Shown: piece by piece, positions 23 through 12,641 of the stretch
How the letters are laid out: each line of letters opens with the position of its first letter
Numbering within the stretch: position 1 is the first letter of the stretch
Source: Lachnospiraceae bacterium
GTDB taxonomy: Bacteria > Bacillota > Clostridia > Lachnospirales > Lachnospiraceae
DNA: 37,585 nt
NCBI GenBank assembly: GCA_003507655.1
Contig: DNUZ01000011.1
Span: forward strand, 1-37,585
Reading direction: 5' to 3'
The notes under the pieces: generated by a model
Told to the model about the DNA's origin: nothing
Databases searched by the model: none
Seen by the model: the letters and a program-made list of their open reading frames with translations, nothing else
Position numbers and translations under genes: made by a program

Positions 23-3000
23 CTATGCCGGACACCCTCCATTCATTATAATATCCTCTCTAACAGACTTTCTAAGTTGTTTCATTGTTGATTTTTTTAC
101 TCTCTTCCATAAAATCGTATTTTCTGCAACATACAGATTCTCCTTTTTGGTAAAATCTAAAACACTATCCCAAAACAGTTCTTCATCTGCCTTATATATC
201 TTCTTTTGTAGTTTTTTAAACTGCTTTCCCATAACATCTTTTGTTTCCTTTTTTACTTCCCTTAAAGTTGCTTCTGCCGAATCCGTCTTATTTTTCACAT
301 TATTTCGAACTTCCTTATAAATCTTATCATCCCCACACTTACGGTTCCATAAAGCAGATACTAAATAATTCTCTATTGCATTCAAAACTACTTTTCCTAT
401 CATTTGAGAACTAAACTCCTTTTCCTCTATTACCAGTTCCTTATATAGAGTATTTGCAATATCCATTGCAATTCCTAAGCCATCTTTTAGCCATTTCTTA
501 TCTATATGTCCAAATACTCCACAAATAGCTCCATATGCAGCTTCCTGCATAATCCTCTTTCCTTCAATCTCATCTCCTGCTATATATGCCTCTACCAAAT
601 AGCTCAATACATTCCATAATGCATTAACTACTGCACTCACTATTCGTGTTGCAATAGTTATAGATTCCCCATTTTCATCAATATAATTTTTCGGGCTGTT
701 ATAACAGTATACATAAGCATTCAGACTATCCGGCATCTCCACATCGCCACCAAGGATATCTTCTGCTGCAAATCGTCCCTGTGTCGGCAAATATTCCCTT
801 GCCTGTGCAAAATATGTACCTGTCACTGCATCCGGCTGATAACCAGTATATCCAAATGGCTGATACAATGTCTCCTCAACAATTTTTTCATTTCCAAATT
901 CATCATAGGCATACCTGCCAATCGTCTTTCCCTTTTCATCAAGAAAACGCAGTGGACTTCCCACTTCATCTGTCAGGTAATATGATTTTCCTTTCTCGCC
1001 TATCTGAACTGCCGCGCGTCCATCCCATAGATACCAATTATTTGTTTTCTCGCTTTTAAGTCCCAAAAGATTATTTGCCTTAGCCATCAAATCTGTCAAG
1101 TATTCTGTCTGGGTTTCTTCCTGACTTTCATTGACCTCTATTCTTCTAATTCGTTGACCTAAAGCATGATAACCATACTGAACTTTTCTCTGTTCTATGA
1201 AATCTACTGCTTCCTCCAGGCGATTTGTACTTCCATATCGAAAGGTCTTCCGAATGGTATGTCCTTCCTGCATCTGTATCATATTTCCTCTTCCGTCGTA
1301 TTGATAACAGATGTCCTGTCCTTCACTCTGTTCACATATCAATTCATTTGCATTATTATATTTATATAATGTAACACGTTTTTTCTGATTACTCCACTCC
1401 TCCTTACGAATTCTATTTCCTCTGACATCATATTCATATTTATGTTGCAGACTTCCATCTTTTCGTACTTCTTTCAACCTTCCTAAAATATCATATAGAT
1501 ACTCTTCTTTTCCGCTTTCTTCACTCATCCCTTCACGAAAACGTTCTATTCCAATGCGGTTTCCCATACAATCATAAGACATTCGTATTTTTTCTAGAAG
1601 TTTTCCTTCTATTTTACTCTCCATACTTTCTAACTGACCAGCCTTCGTGTGGTAATAAAAAGTATGAACACCATTGGGCAGTTCTTTCTCTGCCAGCCTT
1701 CCCTTTTCATCATACCGGTAACGGATACTTTCTTGCGCTCCCTCTCCGGTTCTGGTCAGCAGTTCCTCTAACCGCTGTCCTTTTCCATAACGGTACTCCG
1801 CTTCCGTTCCGTCCGGATAGACCAGGCCCGTGCGTTCTCCCCTCCTTCCATAACGGCAGCTTACGCTCTCTCCTCCCGGATAGATGGTCTGTACCACACG
1901 GCCTAAAGCATCATTGATGAAGGTTGTGGTTCCATTCCAGTCTTCCACTCCGGTCAGGTTCCCTGCCGCATCATAATGGTACTGTGCCCTGCGTCCGTCA
2001 CCATACAGGATCTCCTCCCGTTTTCCTGACGGGGTATAGCGGTAACGCGTCTCATATCCGTCTCGGTCTTTTTTTAGGACTGCCCTGCCTAAAAGGTCAT
2101 AGCCATAATAAGTGCTCCGTCCAAGGGCATCTGTCTCGGCCAGGATGTTCCCTGCATGGTCCCTTTCATAAGTACAGAGGTCTGTTCCTCCCATGCAGAC
2201 TCGGATCAGGCGGTCCATGGCATCATAAGCATACAGGGTTCTTGTCCCTGCCGCATCTGTGACTGCACAAAGGTTCCCATTTCTGTCATACTCCCTCTTT
2301 GTGGTATTCCCCATGGCATCCGTGACACTTATAAGGTTCCCCTGTGCATCATAGGCATAGCTTTCCTTCTGTCCCAGGTTTCCTTCCATGGTTATCACAC
2401 GGTTTAACAGATCATATCCGTAACGGATACTTTCTTCCCCGGGGCCGCTCCTTTCGATCAGGTTCCCGCTCTCATCATACCGGTATGTCTGGCTTGTGCC
2501 GTCCGGGCAGCGGAGCGCCCGCAGCCTTCCTCCTGCTTCTCTTTCAAATGTAATGACTCCGCCTTCTGCATCCGTGACCGTCTCGATATCCCCTAAGACC
2601 GTATAGCTGTATTCCGTACGGTTTCCCATCACGTCTGTCTTTGCATGCAGAAGTCCCGCTGCATTATACTCATAATGCGTCTTATATCCGTTTGCATCCG
2701 TTTCACAGACCAGGTTCCCGTTCCCGTCATACTCATAGCTCTCTTTTTCTCCCTGCGGTCCGCAGTGCCCTGTGATCCTTCCCAGGACATCATAGGCATA
2801 TCCTGTTACATTCCCTAATGCGTCCGTCTCACGGATGCATCTGCCTGCCGCATCATACTCATAACGGGTCGTCTCCCCAAGAACTCCTGTCTTTTGGATG
2901 AGGCGGTTTCTTTTATCATAATGGTAATGCTCCTTTCCTCCGTCCGGATGGTACACGGTTTTTAGGTTCCACATCTCGTCATACTCATAACGGGTCGTGT

Positions 3001-4978
3001 TCCCGTTCGCATCCGTATGGCTCTCCGGAAGGTTTAAGGCGTTATAGGTAACGCTTTCCTCGATACCGTCCGATGTCCGCATTCCGGTCCGCTTCCCTCC
3101 TGCCCCGTAGGTGTACTCTGTCCGGTTCCCCAGGGCATCCGTGACTGCACAAAGGCGGTCTGCATCATCGTATTCATAATGCGTCTCCTCCCCACGGGGT
3201 CCCGTACTCCGGATCCTCCGGTTCAGGCTGTCATAGGCATAACGGGTGGTATTCCCCCATGCATCCGTAACCCCCGTAAGGTTTCCGTTTTCATCATAGG
3301 TCAGACGGATCTTTGCCCCGTCTGCAAGACGCACCTGCTCTGGCCGTCCGTGTTTTGTCTCTTCCCCATAAAGGAATTCCGTACGGTTTCCGCTGTTGTC
3401 TTCTGCACAGGTCAGATGTCCCTGTCTGTCCCATGCAAGTTTTGCCAGCATCTCCCCGTTCCTCGTCAGGCTCATCAGATGGTTGTCTGCATCATAGGTG
3501 GCATTCACCTTGTTCCCCATCGCATCTATGGTCTGGGTCAGGTTTCCACGGCTGTCATAAGCATGACGGGTGGTATTTCCCAGGGCATCCCGGTACAGGG
3601 TCAGCTGTCCGCGGCTGTTATAGGCATATGTCTCCTCTCCGTCCTCATGGATGGTTTTCGTGTTCTGGTACCTTCCGTTATGGCAGTGGACCGTCCGGCT
3701 TTGGTTCCTCTCCGTCAGCAGTACCTGCCCTTCCTCCTCATAAGAGAATTCCATCGTGCTCCCGTCCGGAAAGGTCTGCTTTACGGCACGGTTCTCACTG
3801 TCGTATTCCGTATGGACTCCTATGATCCCTGCCGGGCTCAGGACTTCTTCCAGATTTCCGCCGGCATCATAACGGTATCCGGTTTCCGTGCCATCCGCTC
3901 CCTGCACACGGATCAGCTGCTCCCCTTCATAGCTATAGGTGATGCTCCTTCCCGTATCATCCTGTATCCCGCTTAAATGTCCTTCTTCATCATAGGACAG
4001 GTACAGGCTCATGCCGTCGCTTTCCCTCGTGACACGCTCCAGTCTCCCCTCTGTCCAGCTTCGTACAATGGCTCCTCTGTCCCCATGGATCTCCCGGATG
4101 CTGTTCCCGTCTGCATCGAACACGGTCCGTTTCCCATCCCTGGTGCGGTATTCCCATGCTCCATCCCGGTTGCGGAGTACGGCGGTTGTCCCGCTTCCAT
4201 GGCAGGTTCCGTCTTTCTTTTTTACAAAGGTCTGTTCTTCCCCGTCTTCTAATACGACCGTAAGGCTCTCTTCTTCCTGTATCAGGTGCATCTCATGGCT
4301 GTGGCTCCATCCCCTTCCGAAGATCCCTCCGCGTTCATCCACGCTGTTATAATGGCGTGTAAAGGACAGCTCCGGGATCCCCCGGATGACAAGGTCTGTC
4401 TTTTTGTACAGAAAATTTCCCGTACTGAGGTTTACGGGGTCCGCGCTCTGCTGCATGTATTCATGATCCCCTCCCTTTAAGGCGGCCAGGGCTTTGGACA
4501 TCCTTTTATCTAAGTCCTCATCTTCTTTTTCCCATTTCATCCCAAGGTCTCTTATTTTTTTCTTAAATGCATGGTAGCTCCCCGGCTCGACTTTTCCCGG
4601 GACAAGTTTCTTAAGCTCTTTCGTCCTCTGGACTGCTTTTCCCGTAACGGATACAGCTTCTGAAAGATTCTTTCCTATCTCTGCATCCCCGAGGCTGATT
4701 TTCCCGCTGATACGCTGGAGGTCTGCCTTCAGATGACTGGCATAATCCGTATAGGTTCCCTTTGTTTTTGGCAGGCTGCTGCTTAATTCGGATGCCGCTG
4801 CCCTGAGTCCCGGACTGGGAAGACCGCTCTCTAACACTCCGAGCAGGGTCTGCAGGCTGTCGGACTGTGTCCGCAGGCTTCCCGTGCTTTCTTCTGCCTT
4901 TCCCATCAGGTTTCCTGTCTTTTCATATATTTTTCTTATTTCTTCCGTGTGGAACGCACGGTCTTTGGCGATTCCCAT
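23..4978 (-). CDS. Giant RHS-repeat polymorphic toxin, probable T7SS substrate
   Basis: This 1651-residue protein has the build of a polymorphic toxin delivered to rival cells. Residues 1-175 are helical and hydrophilic with no signal peptide, resembling WXG/LXG-type targeting domains. A DUF6531-like entry segment follows near residue 181 (DPVNLSTGNF, then RHYNSVDERGGIFGRGW). Next come several dozen YD/RHS repeats of about 20-21 residues (pattern YDxxGNLxxxxDAxGNxTxYxYD), which in known RHS proteins form a shell around the toxin. The conserved RHS core (YLTDEVGSPLRF, AREYLPTQGRFAAED, ending near YIDENG) closes at about residue 1437. The final ~214 residues are the variable tip and match no toxin family I recognise. 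The ATG at 4976-4978 follows GAGGGGAG at good spacing. GC content falls from about 50-55% in the 5' two thirds to about 35% in the 3' third. The T7SS link is inferred from the neighbouring essC/EsaA-like genes. Confidence 0.9.
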   Translation of the reverse strand: MGIAKDRAFHTEEIRKIYEKTGNLMGKAEESTGSLRTQSDSLQTLLGVLESGLPSPGLRAAASELSSSLPKTKGTYTDYASHLKADLQRISGKISLGDAEIGKNLSEAVSVTGKAVQRTKELKKLVPGKVEPGSYHAFKKKIRDLGMKWEKEDEDLDKRMSKALAALKGGDHEYMQQSADPVNLSTGNFLYKKTDLVIRGIPELSFTRHYNSVDERGGIFGRGWSHSHEMHLIQEEESLTVVLEDGEEQTFVKKKDGTCHGSGTTAVLRNRDGAWEYRTRDGKRTVFDADGNSIREIHGDRGAIVRSWTEGRLERVTRESDGMSLYLSYDEEGHLSGIQDDTGRSITYSYEGEQLIRVQGADGTETGYRYDAGGNLEEVLSPAGIIGVHTEYDSENRAVKQTFPDGSTMEFSYEEEGQVLLTERNQSRTVHCHNGRYQNTKTIHEDGEETYAYNSRGQLTLYRDALGNTTRHAYDSRGNLTQTIDAMGNKVNATYDADNHLMSLTRNGEMLAKLAWDRQGHLTCAEDNSGNRTEFLYGEETKHGRPEQVRLADGAKIRLTYDENGNLTGVTDAWGNTTRYAYDSLNRRIRSTGPRGEETHYEYDDADRLCAVTDALGNRTEYTYGAGGKRTGMRTSDGIEESVTYNALNLPESHTDANGNTTRYEYDEMWNLKTVYHPDGGKEHYHYDKRNRLIQKTGVLGETTRYEYDAAGRCIRETDALGNVTGYAYDVLGRITGHCGPQGEKESYEYDGNGNLVCETDANGYKTHYEYNAAGLLHAKTDVMGNRTEYSYTVLGDIETVTDAEGGVITFEREAGGRLRALRCPDGTSQTYRYDESGNLIERSGPGEESIRYGYDLLNRVITMEGNLGQKESYAYDAQGNLISVTDAMGNTTKREYDRNGNLCAVTDAAGTRTLYAYDAMDRLIRVCMGGTDLCTYERDHAGNILAETDALGRSTYYGYDLLGRAVLKKDRDGYETRYRYTPSGKREEILYGDGRRAQYHYDAAGNLTGVEDWNGTTTFINDALGRVVQTIYPGGESVSCRYGRRGERTGLVYPDGTEAEYRYGKGQRLEELLTRTGEGAQESIRYRYDEKGRLAEKELPNGVHTFYYHTKAGQLESMESKIEGKLLEKIRMSYDCMGNRIGIERFREGMSEESGKEEYLYDILGRLKEVRKDGSLQHKYEYDVRGNRIRKEEWSNQKKRVTLYKYNNANELICEQSEGQDICYQYDGRGNMIQMQEGHTIRKTFRYGSTNRLEEAVDFIEQRKVQYGYHALGQRIRRIEVNESQEETQTEYLTDLMAKANNLLGLKSEKTNNWYLWDGRAAVQIGEKGKSYYLTDEVGSPLRFLDEKGKTIGRYAYDEFGNEKIVEETLYQPFGYTGYQPDAVTGTYFAQAREYLPTQGRFAAEDILGGDVEMPDSLNAYVYCYNSPKNYIDENGESITIATRIVSAVVNALWNVLSYLVEAYIAGDEIEGKRIMQEAAYGAICGVFGHIDKKWLKDGLGIAMDIANTLYKELVIEEKEFSSQMIGKVVLNAIENYLVSALWNRKCGDDKIYKEVRNNVKNKTDSAEATLREVKKETKDVMGKQFKKLQKKIYKADEELFWDSVLDFTKKENLYVAENTILWKRVKKSTMKQLRKSVREDIIMNGGCPA
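1700..3960 (-). repeat. YD/RHS repeat array inside the RHS toxin gene
   Basis: On the coding strand this stretch repeats, at roughly 60-63 base spacing, units encoding Y-x-Y-D-x-x-G-N/R-L followed by D-A-x-G-N-x-T. Short exact matches recur; for example, the 19-base string beginning catactcataacggg occurs near 2854 and 2975, and gtgactgcacaaagg occurs near 2262 and 3141. The DNA repetition follows from the protein repeat. It is also possible substrate for recombination between units. Confidence 0.75.
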
Positions 4979-5045: not shown

Positions 5046-5771
5046 TTACTTTTTTAATGTATACGCTAACTTATTTCCTTCTTTATCACTCTGCAGATCT
5101 GTAAAATACCAAAAATACCATTTCTTTCCGTTCTCTTCATAGGGAATTACTGCATCCGGTTTCTGTCCTTCTACGGTCAGTGCCTCTGCACTTTCTCCTT
5201 TTTTCAGTTTCGCTTCCATGATGTCTCCAAATACAAATCTTGCATTTTTGTCAATTCCATAGTGCTGCATATAGTCACTTCTTGCTAACTGTGCCTTTGT
5301 ATTCTTATCAGCATCTCCTATTCCTTTATAAAATTTTTCAGAGTCCCTTACATAGGAACGCAAAAATGCATAACATTTTTCGCCGTTCACTTCCCGTATC
5401 TTAAAAGTTGCAAATGTATTCATACTCTTTTTCTTTTGGATGGATTGATAATAGATGAATCTGTACTGATCATTCTCCATATCAACCAAAAGATTATCTA
5501 TATTTTTCTGATACGGTTCATACTCATCATAATAGACATCTGCCTTTTGTAGGGCTTCTTCCATGGTTGGATAATACTCTTCATCGGGTATATCATCTTC
5601 GTTGACTTCGCTAATGTAACGAGGGTATTCACCGGTATAAGATTCTTTTATATTGGGGTCTAAAGTGATGGACCTGTCATACCAATATAAAATGACTATC
5701 CCTAAAATTCCAATCACAAATAAGATATTTTCACATATTTTTCCTGCTTTTTTTCCCTTGCTCTTATTCAT
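5046..5771 (-). CDS. Membrane-anchored protein, paralogue of the adjacent upstream gene; candidate immunity
   Basis: This 241-residue protein has a short basic N-terminus, one transmembrane helix at about residues 13-31 (ILFVIGILGIVILYW) and a hydrophilic domain probably outside the membrane. I do not recognise the family. Its C-terminal half shares a clear signature with the upstream protein: a FxxGDxM segment, then LTVEGQKPD, WYFWYxTDL and a terminal YTL. Its start overlaps the upstream stop by 8 bases, so the two are translationally coupled. It lies 67 bases before the RHS toxin gene and after an orphan RHS tip, where immunity genes commonly sit. A role in self-protection is inferred from this context and the membrane anchor. 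Confidence 0.8.
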   Translation of the reverse strand: MNKSKGKKAGKICENILFVIGILGIVILYWYDRSITLDPNIKESYTGEYPRYISEVNEDDIPDEEYYPTMEEALQKADVYYDEYEPYQKNIDNLLVDMENDQYRFIYYQSIQKKKSMNTFATFKIREVNGEKCYAFLRSYVRDSEKFYKGIGDADKNTKAQLARSDYMQHYGIDKNARFVFGDIMEAKLKKGESAEALTVEGQKPDAVIPYEENGKKWYFWYFTDLQSDKEGNKLAYTLKK

Positions 5772-6628: not shown

Positions 6629-8089
6629 TCAATTTAAACACGATGTTTTAACCATGAATAAACCTGGAAGTTTTTTGATTAAATACTCATATATCACAGG
6701 TGATGTACTTGCTATATATCTAGTCAGAACCACTATAAGTCCATCATCTAGAACACCTACTAAACTCCCATCATCACTTACTATCACTGCTAATGCGACT
6801 AAGGCCAAAGATATCTCTACCAGTTGTTTCCAATTACATATATTTTCTTTCGTTGATATCACCCATTTTAAACTGTTAAAATCTTCAATCTCAGTTCCAT
6901 CCGGTAATGGAAACGGAATATTTTCATATCCGCCTGACATATTACTCATTACTCCCAGACCATCTTTATCAATATAGAATCCTGAAGTCATATTATAACT
7001 CCCATTTTCTCCTACATCTGTTCCTGCTGACACTGTAAGAGATACTTTCCATGTTTTCGGATTTCCATCCGTTCCAGAAATCCGAATTCTTAGATAGTCC
7101 ATTATTCCTGCATTAAATCCCCATCCTTTATATCTATCATTCCCCTGTTTTTCTATAACAACAATATTACCACCAGTATGTATTTTAGCTAAATATTCAA
7201 TGTTTTTTCCTTCCTTTTTATCAATTATTTCATCCGTACCATATATTTTTTTTCTCCAATCATTATCTACTAACCACCGTACAACTTCACTTACCGATTT
7301 ATCTGCTTCTGCTTCCGATGGCCATTCACCTGTCCTGTCCACAAATATCATCGGACTATTAAAACAATAAATATAACGGTTCTGGCTTAATGGTATATCT
7401 ACATAACCGGCTCTTATATCGTGTGCCGTAAATCTTCCCACTTCCGGCATATATTCTCTCGCTTTTGCATAAAGTGTCTCTGCATTAGAATCACGCATAT
7501 ATCCCGTGTAACCAAATGGTTGAATCCGATCTGCATTTTCGTATAAATCGTTTCCAAATTCATCATAACCATACTGCTCTATACTTGTTCCTGTTTCATC
7601 AAATATGTCTAAAGGACTTCCCTGCACATCCGTAAGATAGCTGTATACTCCTTTAGAGTTTTTCAACAAAGCCAGTCTGTCATCCCAGATATAATTCTCT
7701 CTTTCTCTCCCGTTTTCAATACTTATGACATTCTGATTTTCACCATTATAGTCTACTGTATATGTGACTTTTTTACCGTTACTTTTTAAACCGACTCTAT
7801 TTTCTAAACCATCATAAAGATATGTTACCTTTTCGGATAAACTCTCGGACTCCTCCATACGATTTATTGCACCATACCGATAACGGTGAATAGTTTTTCC
7901 ATTCTCGCAGATTTCATTGAGATTTCCTCTCTTATCATAATGATACTGTTTTTCTGTTACATCCTGTTTTTCAAAAAGGAGTTCTCCTGTCTCACTATAA
8001 CGATACACTGTTTCCTGTTTCTCGTTTTTCGTGTAACTTTCCTTCTTGATTCGGTTTCCGAAAATATCATAGGTATATTTACGATACAA
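6629..8089 (-). pseudogene. Headless RHS fragment with its own C-terminal tip (orphan toxin end)
   Basis: The reading frame matches about the last 470 residues of the large RHS protein in order: YTYDIFGNRIKK, YLTDVQGSPLDIF, YDEFGN, PFGYTGYMRD, AREYMPEVGRFTAHD and CFNSPMIFVDRTGE. It then diverges into a separate tip of about 230 residues that ends with a hydrophobic stretch (VEISLALVALAVIV, later LIVVLTRYI). The usual RHS N-terminal domain and nearly all repeats are missing. The only upstream start is a TTG with no ribosome site, and an in-frame TGA lies just before it. Its 5' end is fused to the cut essC gene, whose frame overlaps it at 7957-8089. It may be untranslated, or a silent cassette that could recombine onto a full RHS gene. 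I do not recognise the tip. Confidence 0.7.
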
Positions 8090-11000
8090 ATATCCATATT
8101 GTCAACTACTATCACAATTGCTTTTAATGGCTTATCTGTTAACTGGTTATATACGGAAAAACTTTGTGCAGAAACCTGTGCAAACTTCTGTTTACGCACC
8201 TTCATTTCTTTTTGGATCAGACGGAAGAATTTTCCTCTTTTTTCTTCATCATCATAGGTCATATAATCTGCTGTATGTGCCAGTTTTTTCAGTGGGATTA
8301 ATGCGCTGTTTCCAAAATCAAAAATATAAAAGTTTAATTCTGAAACACGATTTTTTCTTGCCAGACTTAAAATGCAATTTGTTAACACTGTCGATTTTCC
8401 ATAACCTGCCGCTGAAAAGAACCCAAAGTTACCCTCTGTCTCTAAATCAATCCAAAACTCTTCCTGGCTTTGTTGATCTGGAATATCTACCATACCTAGT
8501 GGAAATGATAAATCCAGTTTTTCCATTGCTTTAATTTCTTGAATTGTACTAATCATTTTGAATGGCAAGGATGGCAGCCATGGTTTTGGCACTTTTTCAC
8601 AATGCTGTTCCTCAAAAATCTCCTCTATATAATCGACCACCGCTTCTAACTGTGTCCTTTTTTCACCGCTTTCGCTTTCATCATCTAAATTTTCATTTAA
8701 AAGTTCTCCCTGACCTAATTCATTGATTTTATAAACCCGGTCATCTATCTGTTCACTCATTCCTCCTGCTTCTACTGTAGCACCACTCCATGCTGACTGG
8801 AAAAGTTCATAAATTTCATTATTACCCACCTGTAGATAAGCACGACCGGGCTGTGTAATAAATGCCGCATCTGCTGTCTTTAAAATTTCCCGGCTGTCTG
8901 CTTCATCCTGTACTTTTAATGCAAGTTTAAATTTTGAGTTTGACCAGATCTGATCATCTACTACACCTGATGGTTTTTGTGTTGCTAAGATCAAATGTAC
9001 TCCCAAGCTACGTCCGATACGTGCTGTGGAAATCAATTCTGCCATAAAATCCGGCTGCTCTTTTTTTAATTCAGCAAACTCATCACTGATTAAGAACAAA
9101 TGTGGAATTGGAACGCTGGCCTCACCGCTTTTAAACAATTTATTATAGCCATTAATATGATTCACCCCATATTCGCTAAATATCCTCTGTCGTCTTTTTA
9201 ATTCACTTTTAATGGATGCCATTGCCCGAAGGCTTTCTGCACCATCTAAGTTTGTGATCGTTCCAAGTAAATGTGGCAAATTTTTAAATAATCCTGCCAT
9301 TCCACCACCCTTATAATCAATAAGTAAAAATCCCACCTCATAAGGATGAAAATTAACTGCCAGAGAGAGAATATAGGATTGTATGATTTCTGATTTTCCT
9401 GATCCGGTAGTTCCTGCCACTAATCCGTGTGGTCCATGTGCCTTTTCATGTAGATTTAAATACACATATTCATCATTTCCACGCACACCTAACGGAACTG
9501 CTAATGATTTATGTGACTGGCTTTTTTTCCAACGCTGTTCTGCATTTAATTCCCTTGCCTGTTGTATACCATACATCTCATAAAAGGTGATATTCTCCGG
9601 TATTTTTGATACAATTCCCTGTTCGTGTTGTAAAACACTCAGATTTCTCGCCATCCACTCTAAGCTGACATTACCTACCCTGTACAATTCCAAGTTCTTA
9701 TTTAAAAATTTCTTTTCATTTAAAACAAGCTGTCCTTTCTTAGAATCTAATACTTCCATAACAGTCCCAATACTATCCGGCAGATTTGCCATCTGTTGTG
9801 TCGTATAGATTACAGAAAATGCAAGATTACTCCCATTATTGTCGATATATTCCATAATGGCATGAGAAGAAATAAGTTTTGGTTCATCTATTACAAATAA
9901 AAAATATGGTGCAAAACGCGCCTCGTTCTTTTTCTCTTCGCACTTCATCTTACGGTCTTTTAATATCTGTAGAATACTTCCGAGCACCTGATCTCGCATC
10001 TGTTCTGAATTAATCAACCCTCTTAAGTTCAATGCACGGATTTTACTATGCGGAAGCCATTTCATCCATGAAAATTCTTCCTCATATTCCTTGTCATAGA
10101 TTGTAATTATCTGAAGATCATGATAACTTTGAGCAAATACCAGTTGTGTTAAAAGAATCTGTAACTGTTCATGAACATTTTCACGATCACCAACAATTCC
10201 CAAATGTGCTTTTTTCAAATCAACAATCATTGGTTTTTGTGGTATCTTTCCAAAGATTGCTTTTAAATGTTCCCCCTCTTCTTCCAATTCATCTGTTTCA
10301 TATTTCATTGCATTATTTTCATAGTCAATTTTAAAATTAACTTCTGCATCCCAGTATCCTACTGCAACTGTCATGAAATCTTCATCATGAATATTTCTCT
10401 CATAAATACGCGGACTATATTCTCTGATCAATCGCTCCATTTCATCAATTTGAGGGTAATTATAAGACCACGCTTCTATTTCTTTTTCTCTTGCATGATT
10501 CAGTTCTTTTCGTTTTGTCACGAGATAATCCTCATACAGTTCCTCTCGTCTTTTATTTTTCTGCCGACATGCTTTTCTGTCATCAAAATATTTCGTTACA
10601 GTAAAAATCGTTGTCAGTACTGTAGTCAGAGCTGTCACGATAACAAATCCACCCATTTTCATTACAAGACTACTGATAATTGTTACTGCTGTCATTAGCA
10701 GAGGCGGCAAGATCATTTGTACCAGACTTCCTTTTCCCATAACGGACTTTTCCATCGGTGTTTGAATATCTATGGTGTCCTTTGGTAGTCTTTTAATGAT
10801 CCTTGGAGATCTCTTATATTTAGGAAAACCTTCAAACTCATAATTTTCCGGATATAACTCCATAACATGAATCTGAATCCTTTCCGGCTCTGCCTGTATC
10901 ATCAGGCTATCCTCTAAAAATACAATTTCACATCCTCCAACAGAAAATTGATCCTCTTCCCGGATCTGATAGCTACTCTTACCTGTTATCGGTTGTCCAT

Positions 11001-11157
11001 TCCAACGACACTCACCCTCACTTCCCTGATTATAGACATGGAGTATTTCTCCGTCTACCATCGCAAGAACAGCACTATCTGCAATTTCAATATCGGCATT
11101 TTCTCTGCCAAATGTAATTCTTGGATTTCTTTCATAAATTCTTTCCGTACTTTTCAT
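7957..11157 (-). CDS. essC: Truncated EssC/YukB-type T7SS ATPase, C-terminus lost
   Basis: EssC is the membrane FtsK/SpoIIIE-type motor of Firmicutes T7SSb. Visible in order: one FHA-like domain (about residues 1-85), the family segment KYKRSPRIIKR, two membrane helices (about 145-190), a degenerate first ATPase domain (about 300-500), an intact second ATPase domain with Walker A GTTGSGKS near residue 584 and Walker B LFLISDEFAEL near 690, and the start of a third with Walker A SAAGYGKST near 915. EssC-like sequence stops at VIVVDNMD, the third Walker B, near residue 1020. The remaining ~45 residues are RHS DNA read in the wrong frame. At 1066 residues it is well short of the usual ~1300-1500. 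The third domain, which binds secretion signals in known EssC proteins, cannot fold normally, so the gene is probably non-functional. The ATG follows a GGGTG-type site. Confidence 0.9.
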   Translation of the reverse strand: MKSTERIYERNPRITFGRENADIEIADSAVLAMVDGEILHVYNQGSEGECRWNGQPITGKSSYQIREEDQFSVGGCEIVFLEDSLMIQAEPERIQIHVMELYPENYEFEGFPKYKRSPRIIKRLPKDTIDIQTPMEKSVMGKGSLVQMILPPLLMTAVTIISSLVMKMGGFVIVTALTTVLTTIFTVTKYFDDRKACRQKNKRREELYEDYLVTKRKELNHAREKEIEAWSYNYPQIDEMERLIREYSPRIYERNIHDEDFMTVAVGYWDAEVNFKIDYENNAMKYETDELEEEGEHLKAIFGKIPQKPMIVDLKKAHLGIVGDRENVHEQLQILLTQLVFAQSYHDLQIITIYDKEYEEEFSWMKWLPHSKIRALNLRGLINSEQMRDQVLGSILQILKDRKMKCEEKKNEARFAPYFLFVIDEPKLISSHAIMEYIDNNGSNLAFSVIYTTQQMANLPDSIGTVMEVLDSKKGQLVLNEKKFLNKNLELYRVGNVSLEWMARNLSVLQHEQGIVSKIPENITFYEMYGIQQARELNAEQRWKKSQSHKSLAVPLGVRGNDEYVYLNLHEKAHGPHGLVAGTTGSGKSEIIQSYILSLAVNFHPYEVGFLLIDYKGGGMAGLFKNLPHLLGTITNLDGAESLRAMASIKSELKRRQRIFSEYGVNHINGYNKLFKSGEASVPIPHLFLISDEFAELKKEQPDFMAELISTARIGRSLGVHLILATQKPSGVVDDQIWSNSKFKLALKVQDEADSREILKTADAAFITQPGRAYLQVGNNEIYELFQSAWSGATVEAGGMSEQIDDRVYKINELGQGELLNENLDDESESGEKRTQLEAVVDYIEEIFEEQHCEKVPKPWLPSLPFKMISTIQEIKAMEKLDLSFPLGMVDIPDQQSQEEFWIDLETEGNFGFFSAAGYGKSTVLTNCILSLARKNRVSELNFYIFDFGNSALIPLKKLAHTADYMTYDDEEKRGKFFRLIQKEMKVRKQKFAQVSAQSFSVYNQLTDKPLKAIVIVVDNMDICIVNIPMIFSETESRRKVTRKTRNRKQCIVIVRQENSFLKNRM

Positions 11158-11176: not shown

Positions 11177-11398
11177 TTATTTTTCTTCCGTTATCAAAAT
11201 CTCTTCTCTTTTCTCTGATTTTATTTCTTTGAAATTCTGAGTACCCTCTGTCTCATAAGAAAATAAAATCTCTTCTTTACTTTCTTCGTAAGTACTTTCT
11301 AAAAATTCTTTTCTTGAAAATACCAATCTGCTCCAATCATACTGATTTTGTGCTGTCATGTCTGCTTTACGGACGTTTTTCTGTATAATTTGACTCAT
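11177..11398 (-). CDS. Short acidic ORF, possible N-terminal remnant of EssB/YukC
   Basis: This 73-residue product has no membrane segment. Its start (GAGGAGAGCAGTT then ATG) overlaps the end of the EsaA-like gene by 32 bases, and its stop is 19 bases before essC. In T7SSb operons EssB lies just before the EsaB/EssC genes. The pattern DWSRLVFSRKEF...EILFSYETEG...FKEIKSEKREE recalls the N-terminal pseudokinase domain of EssB, but the kinase-like body and membrane helix are absent. I therefore suspect an essB remnant left by an internal deletion. An independent small protein remains possible. The resemblance is from memory of the family, not an alignment. Confidence 0.5.
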   Translation of the reverse strand: MSQIIQKNVRKADMTAQNQYDWSRLVFSRKEFLESTYEESKEEILFSYETEGTQNFKEIKSEKREEILITEEK

Positions 11399-12641
11399 AA
11401 CTGCTCTCCTCTATCATTCTTTCTTTTTTCTTTTTTAAATATCGATACCAAATAATTACAAAAATCAGAACTATCACGAGAATTCCTATCCCTAACATTC
11501 TCTGTGACTGCTGTTCCGCTTTTTCATAATCTTTGTTCATGATAATTACCATTCTCTCCTGAAAAATAGTTCCGGTAATCTGCTCATTTGTGTTTTTCCT
11601 ATTGTATGTATCTATAAAAAGGTTCTGATATAGGTCCTTTTCTTTTTTTCCATCAAAGACATTTTCTTTAACACTATTCTCAATGTTGTCACGGCTTGTC
11701 TTCAATTTTCCATCCGTCTGCTTTTTGCCATAAGAATTGATTTCCTCTACCATAGACTGTTCTAAAAGACTTCTTTGTCCTTCTACTTTTTTATTAGACT
11801 CATCAATCTCATTGTTGACACTCGTAATTCCATTTTCAATCGTTGATTTACCTTTTTCATCTACTAACGGGTTAACTTTAGACACTCCTGTCTTTAAATT
11901 CTCCAACGCAGTAAGCATAGAATCCTGATCATCTGTAATTTTATCGTAATCCTGTTGACCATTATCAAGTGCATTATCAAACTGCTCTCCTATAGATTTG
12001 GCTGTATTTTCCAGCCCCTCACTTTCCTTAGATAAATCAATTGGACTAATGACCTCATTGTTCTCTTTTAACTCTGTAAACTCTACTGTCTGTATCAATT
12101 CTTCTGCCGAAACACCTGACAGATTTTCTCTTTCCGAGTCGTCATTTGCAAGTATTGTCATTGAACCATCCTGTACATTATGTACTTCCTTCAAAATTGC
12201 ATCTAAAAATACATAGGATACATTATTTCGGATACTGTCCTGAAAGGCGGTAAGTTCATAGATCATATTATCTCTGTCCTGTCCCTCTAAATGTGGGTTG
12301 ATCTGATATTCAAATACCGCTTTTTGAGGTGTCCCATTAATACTGTCAACGGCTGTTGAAAATGTAGAAGGTATAATAATATATGCTCCATACAAATCTT
12401 TTTTCATTCCGTCTTTTGCTTCTTCTAAACTTGTAGTCTGATAGCTTTCATCCGGGTATTCAATCAGTTTTGCAGCATAGTAAATCTGCTCTCCCTTCTT
12501 TTCGACGCCGGTATCCAGATTAATGACAGCAATCCTTTCCAGATTAGCACGGAAAGTCACTGAGCGAACAGGCGTTTTCTTTACCTTACCGACCATTCCT
12601 TTGACATACGGTCCTCCAATCATACCGACAGTAAGACACAT
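11367..12641 (-). CDS. EsaA-like (YhgE/Pip N-domain) T7SS membrane protein
   Basis: The protein has an N-terminal hydrophobic segment and a YhgE/Pip/EsaA-type extracellular segment (IAVINLDTGVEKKGEQI..., YGAYIIIPSTFSTAV, residues 30-150). A long helical, Gln/Asn/Asp-rich coiled-coil region follows (about 190-370). It ends in one C-terminal helix (about 381-398, LGIGILVIVLIFVIIWY) with a basic tail. Classical EsaA has several C-terminal helices, so this is a shorter bitopic relative or a derivative. The first standard start in frame is the ATG at 12639-12641, inside the membrane segment. The real start was probably 17 codons upstream at 12690-12692, where the sequence now reads ACG GCA AAG AAA behind AAAGGAGG; see findings. 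It is the first gene of the damaged T7SS cluster, and no EsxA or EsaB gene is visible nearby. Confidence 0.75.
   Translation of the reverse strand: MCLTVGMIGGPYVKGMVGKVKKTPVRSVTFRANLERIAVINLDTGVEKKGEQIYYAAKLIEYPDESYQTTSLEEAKDGMKKDLYGAYIIIPSTFSTAVDSINGTPQKAVFEYQINPHLEGQDRDNMIYELTAFQDSIRNNVSYVFLDAILKEVHNVQDGSMTILANDDSERENLSGVSAEELIQTVEFTELKENNEVISPIDLSKESEGLENTAKSIGEQFDNALDNGQQDYDKITDDQDSMLTALENLKTGVSKVNPLVDEKGKSTIENGITSVNNEIDESNKKVEGQRSLLEQSMVEEINSYGKKQTDGKLKTSRDNIENSVKENVFDGKKEKDLYQNLFIDTYNRKNTNEQITGTIFQERMVIIMNKDYEKAEQQSQRMLGIGILVIVLIFVIIWYRYLKKKKERMIEESSYESNYTEKRP

Follow-up and report, generated by a model that had tools for sequence, protein, structure and literature searches.

Broken loci of the type VIIb secretion system (T7SSb) have been described in Listeria and Staphylococcus, and here we compare with them a locus on the minus strand of contig DNUZ01000011.1 (assembly GCA_003507655.1, Lachnospiraceae bacterium), of which the whole stretch analysed, 37,585 nt, is referred to as the window; in it, essC, the gene of the EssC motor, is cut short and joined to the 3′ part of an RHS gene (RHS1). 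According to Bowran et al. 2023 (PMC10327511), Listeria carries truncated copies of essC, and at such loci L. seeligeri has headless lrhA genes that lack partner genes; a template role is proposed there for truncated lrhA, and EssC variants differ within D2-D3. In a study of S. aureus (PMC9436818), EssC without D3 or without D2-D3 supports no secretion, and EssC depends on D2 for its assembly with EsaA, EssA and EssB; those truncations were engineered with the other core genes present, whereas the window truncation ends inside D2.

The window resembles these cases in part. As in L. seeligeri, where partner genes are missing (PMC10327511), a headless RHS gene lies downstream of a truncated essC; in L. 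monocytogenes, by contrast, the truncated essC keeps its 3′ part (from residue 771) and is a second copy beside a full essC, whereas the window retains the 5′ part of essC, joined to the 3′ part of RHS at a single point, and the remaining core locus is damaged too. The pseudo-T7SS of S. aureus CBS2016-05 (PMC11652724) is likewise a T7SSb broken in one strain; there, however, five core genes are absent, essC is truncated at its 5′ end and the authors suggest one deletion, whereas the window shows at least three scars that leave gene ends, and a 3′-truncated essC. The parallel drawn in the initial annotation, with the strain-variable EssC C-terminus of Staphylococcus, is weak, as the variation there is between intact C-termini, and truncated essC with truncated lrhA in Listeria is closer. 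The kind of event is thus already known from Listeria and from the Staphylococcus pseudo-T7SS, and what is new is the presence of several lesions in near-identical alleles; among the literature matches listed, none has a title or opening of its abstract that deals with T7SS loss in Lachnospiraceae.

We conclude that the window, from a Lachnospiraceae-type bacterium, very probably holds a dead T7SSb locus that was damaged recently and on more than one occasion. The break at essC is best seen against two intact proteins, P0002 (EssC, 1389 residues, in a cluster of 194 members) and P0135 (RHS, 1662 residues, 220 members), where cluster members share 90% identity and need not all carry the same lesion. 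The features at the break are:

8089..11157, minus strand: essC codons 1-1023, covering the N-terminal part, ATPase domain D1 and half of D2, as far as Walker B; P0002 has the same residue at 1021 of the 1023 positions

8086..8090, minus strand: deletion joint essC::RHS1, with at most about 2 bp shared, judging by the residues that P0002 and P0135 have there

7957..8088, minus strand: tail of the essC frame in RHS DNA, 43 out-of-frame codons and a stop, by frame reading

6629..8089, minus strand: RHS1 3′ fragment, the last 29% of the gene (repeat end, core and toxin-like tip), matching P0135 from residue 1177

The EssC open reading frame (7957-11157, minus strand, 1066 residues) scores 1259.3 bits against TIGR03928, above the curated cut-off of 778.4 bits by which we tested for the family; its residues 110-1024 align with positions 2-926 of the model, which has 1296. 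Its motifs lie at residues 582, 916 and 1014, which we take to be D1 Walker A, D2 Walker A and D2 Walker B, respectively; the D1 motifs are present, D2 is cut after Walker B (1014-1023) and D3 is gone, and the full D1-D2-D3 set is not found. The cut had been placed at a third Walker B, a count that holds only if a VIDE-like site near residue 418 is included; D2 is the second canonical domain. Intact EssC aligns over residues 884-1388 with the solved structure 5fv0, presumably EssC D2-D3. The window EssC and P0002 differ at 2 of 1023 residues and diverge from residue 1024.

The last codon that matches EssC, codon 1023 (ATT), occupies 8091-8089; the 43 residues that follow begin CIVNIPMIF, and the stop ends at 7957, close to the approximately 45 out-of-frame codons first described. 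In the other frame, RHS is open from TTG 8089 to 6629 (486 residues) and reads LYRKYTYDIFGNRIKK. The in-frame TGA directly upstream, also described before and borne out by our frame reading, sits in essC DNA and is therefore not a mutated RHS codon. The RHS1 fragment matches P0135 at 99 of 99 residues (fragment residues 2-100) and at 252 of 259 (residues 2-260); 1176 of 1662 RHS codons (71%) are lost, DUF6531 and the N-terminal part were not found in 6629-8089, the LrhA-like layout is not present there, and the start of the fragment would be a TTG within the end of the essC frame. Judged by sequence comparison, the essC::RHS joint is far beyond chance, because the TIGR03928 score is 1259 bits and both sides are 99-100% identical to intact relatives up to the joint. 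Because intact, near-identical proteins exist for both sides, the comparison supports a single deletion that took the end of essC, anything between and 71% of an RHS gene, in agreement with the loss of some 70% that had been proposed.

The residues at the joint also bear on how this deletion may have arisen. The flanking residues in the intact parents are Leu at EssC 1024 of P0002 and Glu at RHS 1176 of P0135, and with any codon usage these would allow at most 2 bases common to both parents. Shared sequence of at most about 2 bp points to end-joining, not to recombination between repeats, and a repeat-mediated deletion is ruled out by the same codon reasoning for parents like P0002 and P0135.

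The damage is not confined to essC. The remaining core genes are represented by:

11652..12641, minus strand: 5′ part of esaA, 330 codons, in an EsaA::EssA fusion frame, by similarity to EsaA

11367..11651, minus strand: 3′ part of essA, fused in frame behind esaA, corresponding to residues 76-160 of a relative of 160 residues

11177..11398, minus strand: essB remnant, 73 codons, corresponding to residues 6-70 of a relative of 431 residues

The fusion frame (11367-12641) encodes 424 residues, EsaA 1-330 followed by the last ~85 residues of EssA, with the joint at 11651/11652; the essB remnant adjoins essC and consists of the start of EssB and then a few codons without alignment to EssB. The missing genes were sought by tblastn against the window (E 0.01): EsxA (three query sequences) and EsaB were not found in the window, nor was EssC 1024-1389. 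Against the 70 EssC loci from genomes that we used for comparison, the same queries recovered EsxA in 9 to 33, EsaB in 16 and the EssC end in 65, and absence is thus well tested for the EssC end and fairly for EsxA and EsaB. The core set of EsxA, EsaA, EsaB, EssA, EssB and EssC is consequently not found in the window, where EsaA, EssA, EssB and EssC are partial. The locus has at least three scars, little of EssB is left, and essC is not its sole broken gene. The account of a locus disabled by the loss of the essC end stands with regard to the essC/RHS deletion but is incomplete.

In 67 of the 70 loci the essC frame continues for 340-419 residues beyond the part aligned with the window, and in the remaining three (L030, L045, L059) the contig ends first. 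A broken essC is not unique to the window, because in L007 and L050, two of the 67 and from more distant relatives, the gene is divided between two frames at a point further upstream. A conserved 1066-residue form of EssC, which the initial annotation had set against a deletion, was looked for and is rejected: no such end occurs among the 120 protein matches listed of 678, and the three of these 120 with fewer than 1100 residues (P0003, P0013 and P0083) do not end like the window EssC. P0013 and P0083 are shortened EssC proteins about 70% identical to that of the window. Gene order is read in locus L020 as esaA, esxA, esaB, essA, essB, essC, and in L001 three small genes and then an RHS gene lie behind essC, with names in both loci given by position and similarity. 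An RHS match within 9 kb downstream on the same strand occurs in 3 of the 51 loci (of 70) that have at least 3 kb downstream, and an RHS gene directly behind essC is thus not general.

We propose that the ancestral order was probably esaA-esxA-esaB-essA-essB-essC, followed by small genes and an RHS effector, as in these relatives, and that at least three deletions would have removed sequence from esaA to essA, within essB, and from essC D2 to RHS codon 1177. The last of these would have been an end-joining event with almost no homology and, by the geometry of L001 (1.1 kb of essC, 1.15 kb between and 3.5 kb of RHS), would have measured ~5.8 kb. The remaining locus would not secrete, its RHS1 tip lying headless beside two candidate immunity genes; a second RHS gene, RHS2, is intact, yet the window would hold no complete machine. 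By analogy, the window locus most likely cannot secrete, because its EssC has lost D3 entirely and D2 by half, EssB is reduced to a remnant, and neither EsxA nor EsaB was found; the S. aureus EssC truncations likewise imply a loss of motor function (PMC9436818). The loss is probably recent, as the protein sequence that was kept is 99-100% identical to alleles on record.

Those alleles, which away from their joints match the window at 99-100% identity and are presumably of the same species, carry lesions of their own. P0044 joins EsaA 568 to EssC 444 (1 member); P0003 follows EssC to 826 and then reads KLSK (115 members); P0244 has three joints, from EsaA 315 to EssC 255, from EssC 500 to 694 and an end at 799 (1 member); P0245 joins EsaA 200 to a DUF6560 protein (1 member); and P0243 changes after residue 335 in a way that fits a frameshift at the protein level (31 members). 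The tally is thus three joints in the window, three in P0244 and one each in P0044, P0003 and P0245, with a likely frameshift in P0243, while the essC of P0002 is intact. The residue markers H31 and I46 are common to P0044 and P0244 and absent in the window, P0243 and P0245, which places different lesions inside one sublineage. Since a search with proteins is biased towards joints that stay in frame, no conclusion on selection was drawn from the reading frames across the joints. In a further sequence, P0254 (1 member), the start of MurB is joined to EssA at the joint residue of the window (GKKEKDL) on a contig of 1245 bp; the common EssA point may reflect a shared fragile purine run or a chimera.

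It is possible, though we hold this only tentatively, that the T7SSb locus has been taken apart repeatedly and fast within one species, with many different joints in near-identical alleles and often more than one scar in the same allele. Several of the lesions rest on single sequences, and artefacts among them are possible. Same-species DNA was not found among 397 genomes of the family of G001, 1 genome of the genus of G003 and 98 relatives of G003; the best DNA match among these is 80% identical, over the stretch from 12985 on, presumably galE, L20 and IF-3. Relatives of EssC or of the RHS fragment were not found by pattern scans of viral contigs.

Downstream of the joint, the locus continues with the following features:

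6629..7327, minus strand: C-terminal toxin-like tip of RHS1, 232 residues; 41% identical to the tip of P0135 and 38% to P0136

5764..6534, minus strand: candidate immunity protein of 256 residues with an N-terminal hydrophobic stretch, by sequence reading and similarity to its 241-residue neighbour

5046..5771, minus strand: its 241-residue paralogue, also a candidate immunity protein with an N-terminal hydrophobic stretch, by similarity to the 256-residue neighbour

23..4978, minus strand: RHS2, intact, 1651 residues, with ~175 residues before DUF6531 and with RHS repeats

No Pfam family was found for the toxin-like tip, which has a match in one of the 397 genomes of the family of G001 (36% over 111 residues). 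Orphan Rhs toxins of Salmonella are reportedly headless C-terminal fragments beside an intact RHS gene, as here, and are said to lie downstream of that gene and to have arisen by tip displacement; the window fragment differs in lying upstream of RHS2 and in having been produced, as we read it, by deletion into essC. P0133 and P0134, relatives of RHS2 on contigs of more than 1 Mb, have an altered last stretch (1645 vs 1653 residues), possibly through a frameshift at the toxin end. A DUF6531 RHS protein at a T7SSb locus is common to Listeria and the window (LrhA, 1656 residues there; RHS2, 1651 here), and the Listeria candidate immunity protein LrhI, of 261 residues with a transmembrane segment near its N-terminus, resembles the 256- and 241-residue proteins by position and layout only (PMC10327511).

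The headless tip had been suggested as a possible donor cassette. That it is kept for toxin swapping, by recombination with RHS2 or with an incoming RHS gene, is compatible with a dead locus, but we consider it unlikely. The RHS1 fragment and the candidate immunity genes have open frames and adjoin RHS2, RHS genes recombine, and a template role has been proposed for truncated lrhA (PMC10327511). P0135 joins an RHS2-like body to an RHS1-like core: RHS2 and P0135 are identical at 1084 of their first 1100 residues (98.5%), and P0135 shows no more than that a tip related to that of RHS1 can occur on such a body. The two proteins split sharply near residue 1103, giving one RHS body with two tip lineages. 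However, the RHS1 fragment is 40% identical to the RHS2-type proteins P0122 and P0123 over the shared core, which leaves little homology for exchange in this genome, and the joint is not conserved among the 120 matches listed.

Slightly less probable still is an artefact, in which the joints arose during assembly of a mixed or amplified sample and the true locus is intact. It would fit such an origin that one locus has several joints but few amino-acid changes; some of the other rearranged alleles lie on short contigs (P0254) or are single-member (P0044, P0244, P0245), and P0242, the cluster of the EsaA::EssA fusion (7 members, contig of 161,365), is marked as the window's own protein and so not clearly independent support. 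On the other side, the two parents of the essC/RHS joint would share no long sequence there by which an assembler could be misled, and polyphosphate kinase, pheA, aroA and polC of the window give nearly full-length matches to family models, which argues that the damage is not spread over the contig. A switch of EssC variant, in which the C-terminus is swapped for another as in Staphylococcus and Listeria, is highly improbable, for although the break in D2 falls inside the D2-D3 part that varies in Listeria, the new tail consists of 43 out-of-frame RHS codons and EssC 1024-1389 matches nothing else in the window, so that for the window, with no alternative homologous D2-D3, the switch is refuted.

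Several points weigh against a recently and repeatedly broken, dead locus. The six small proteins of L001 and L020 have no match in the window by the same tblastn search, in which these queries match only 2 or 3 of the 70 loci, own included, and so test the absence of partner genes poorly. The intact parents of the essC/RHS joint are known as proteins alone, and its homology is deduced from residues. Three deletions with very few amino-acid changes are more than slow neutral decay predicts. Finally, another T7SSb outside the window could do the work of this one; two assemblies of relatives carry two essC loci each (L001/L010 and L004/L030).

Taken alone, the dead T7SSb locus of the window is one more broken secretion locus. 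It also carries a warning: where a headless RHS tip adjoins the end of an essC, the arrangement can be what a deletion left behind, as opposed to a cassette by design. The loss itself would be explained by relaxed or negative selection. The variety of lesions may stem from selection for loss, from a locus that is prone to deletion or from scars brought together by recombination, each of which would fit the data; repeated dismantling, if true, would mean that selection within hosts acts strongly against the weapon, or that some local process favours deletions, with scars stacked by recombination. Together with the other alleles, the locus suggests that a commensal-type bacterium may lose a contact weapon repeatedly within one species, and, if this is true, the cost of carrying a T7SSb would become measurable from strain collections.
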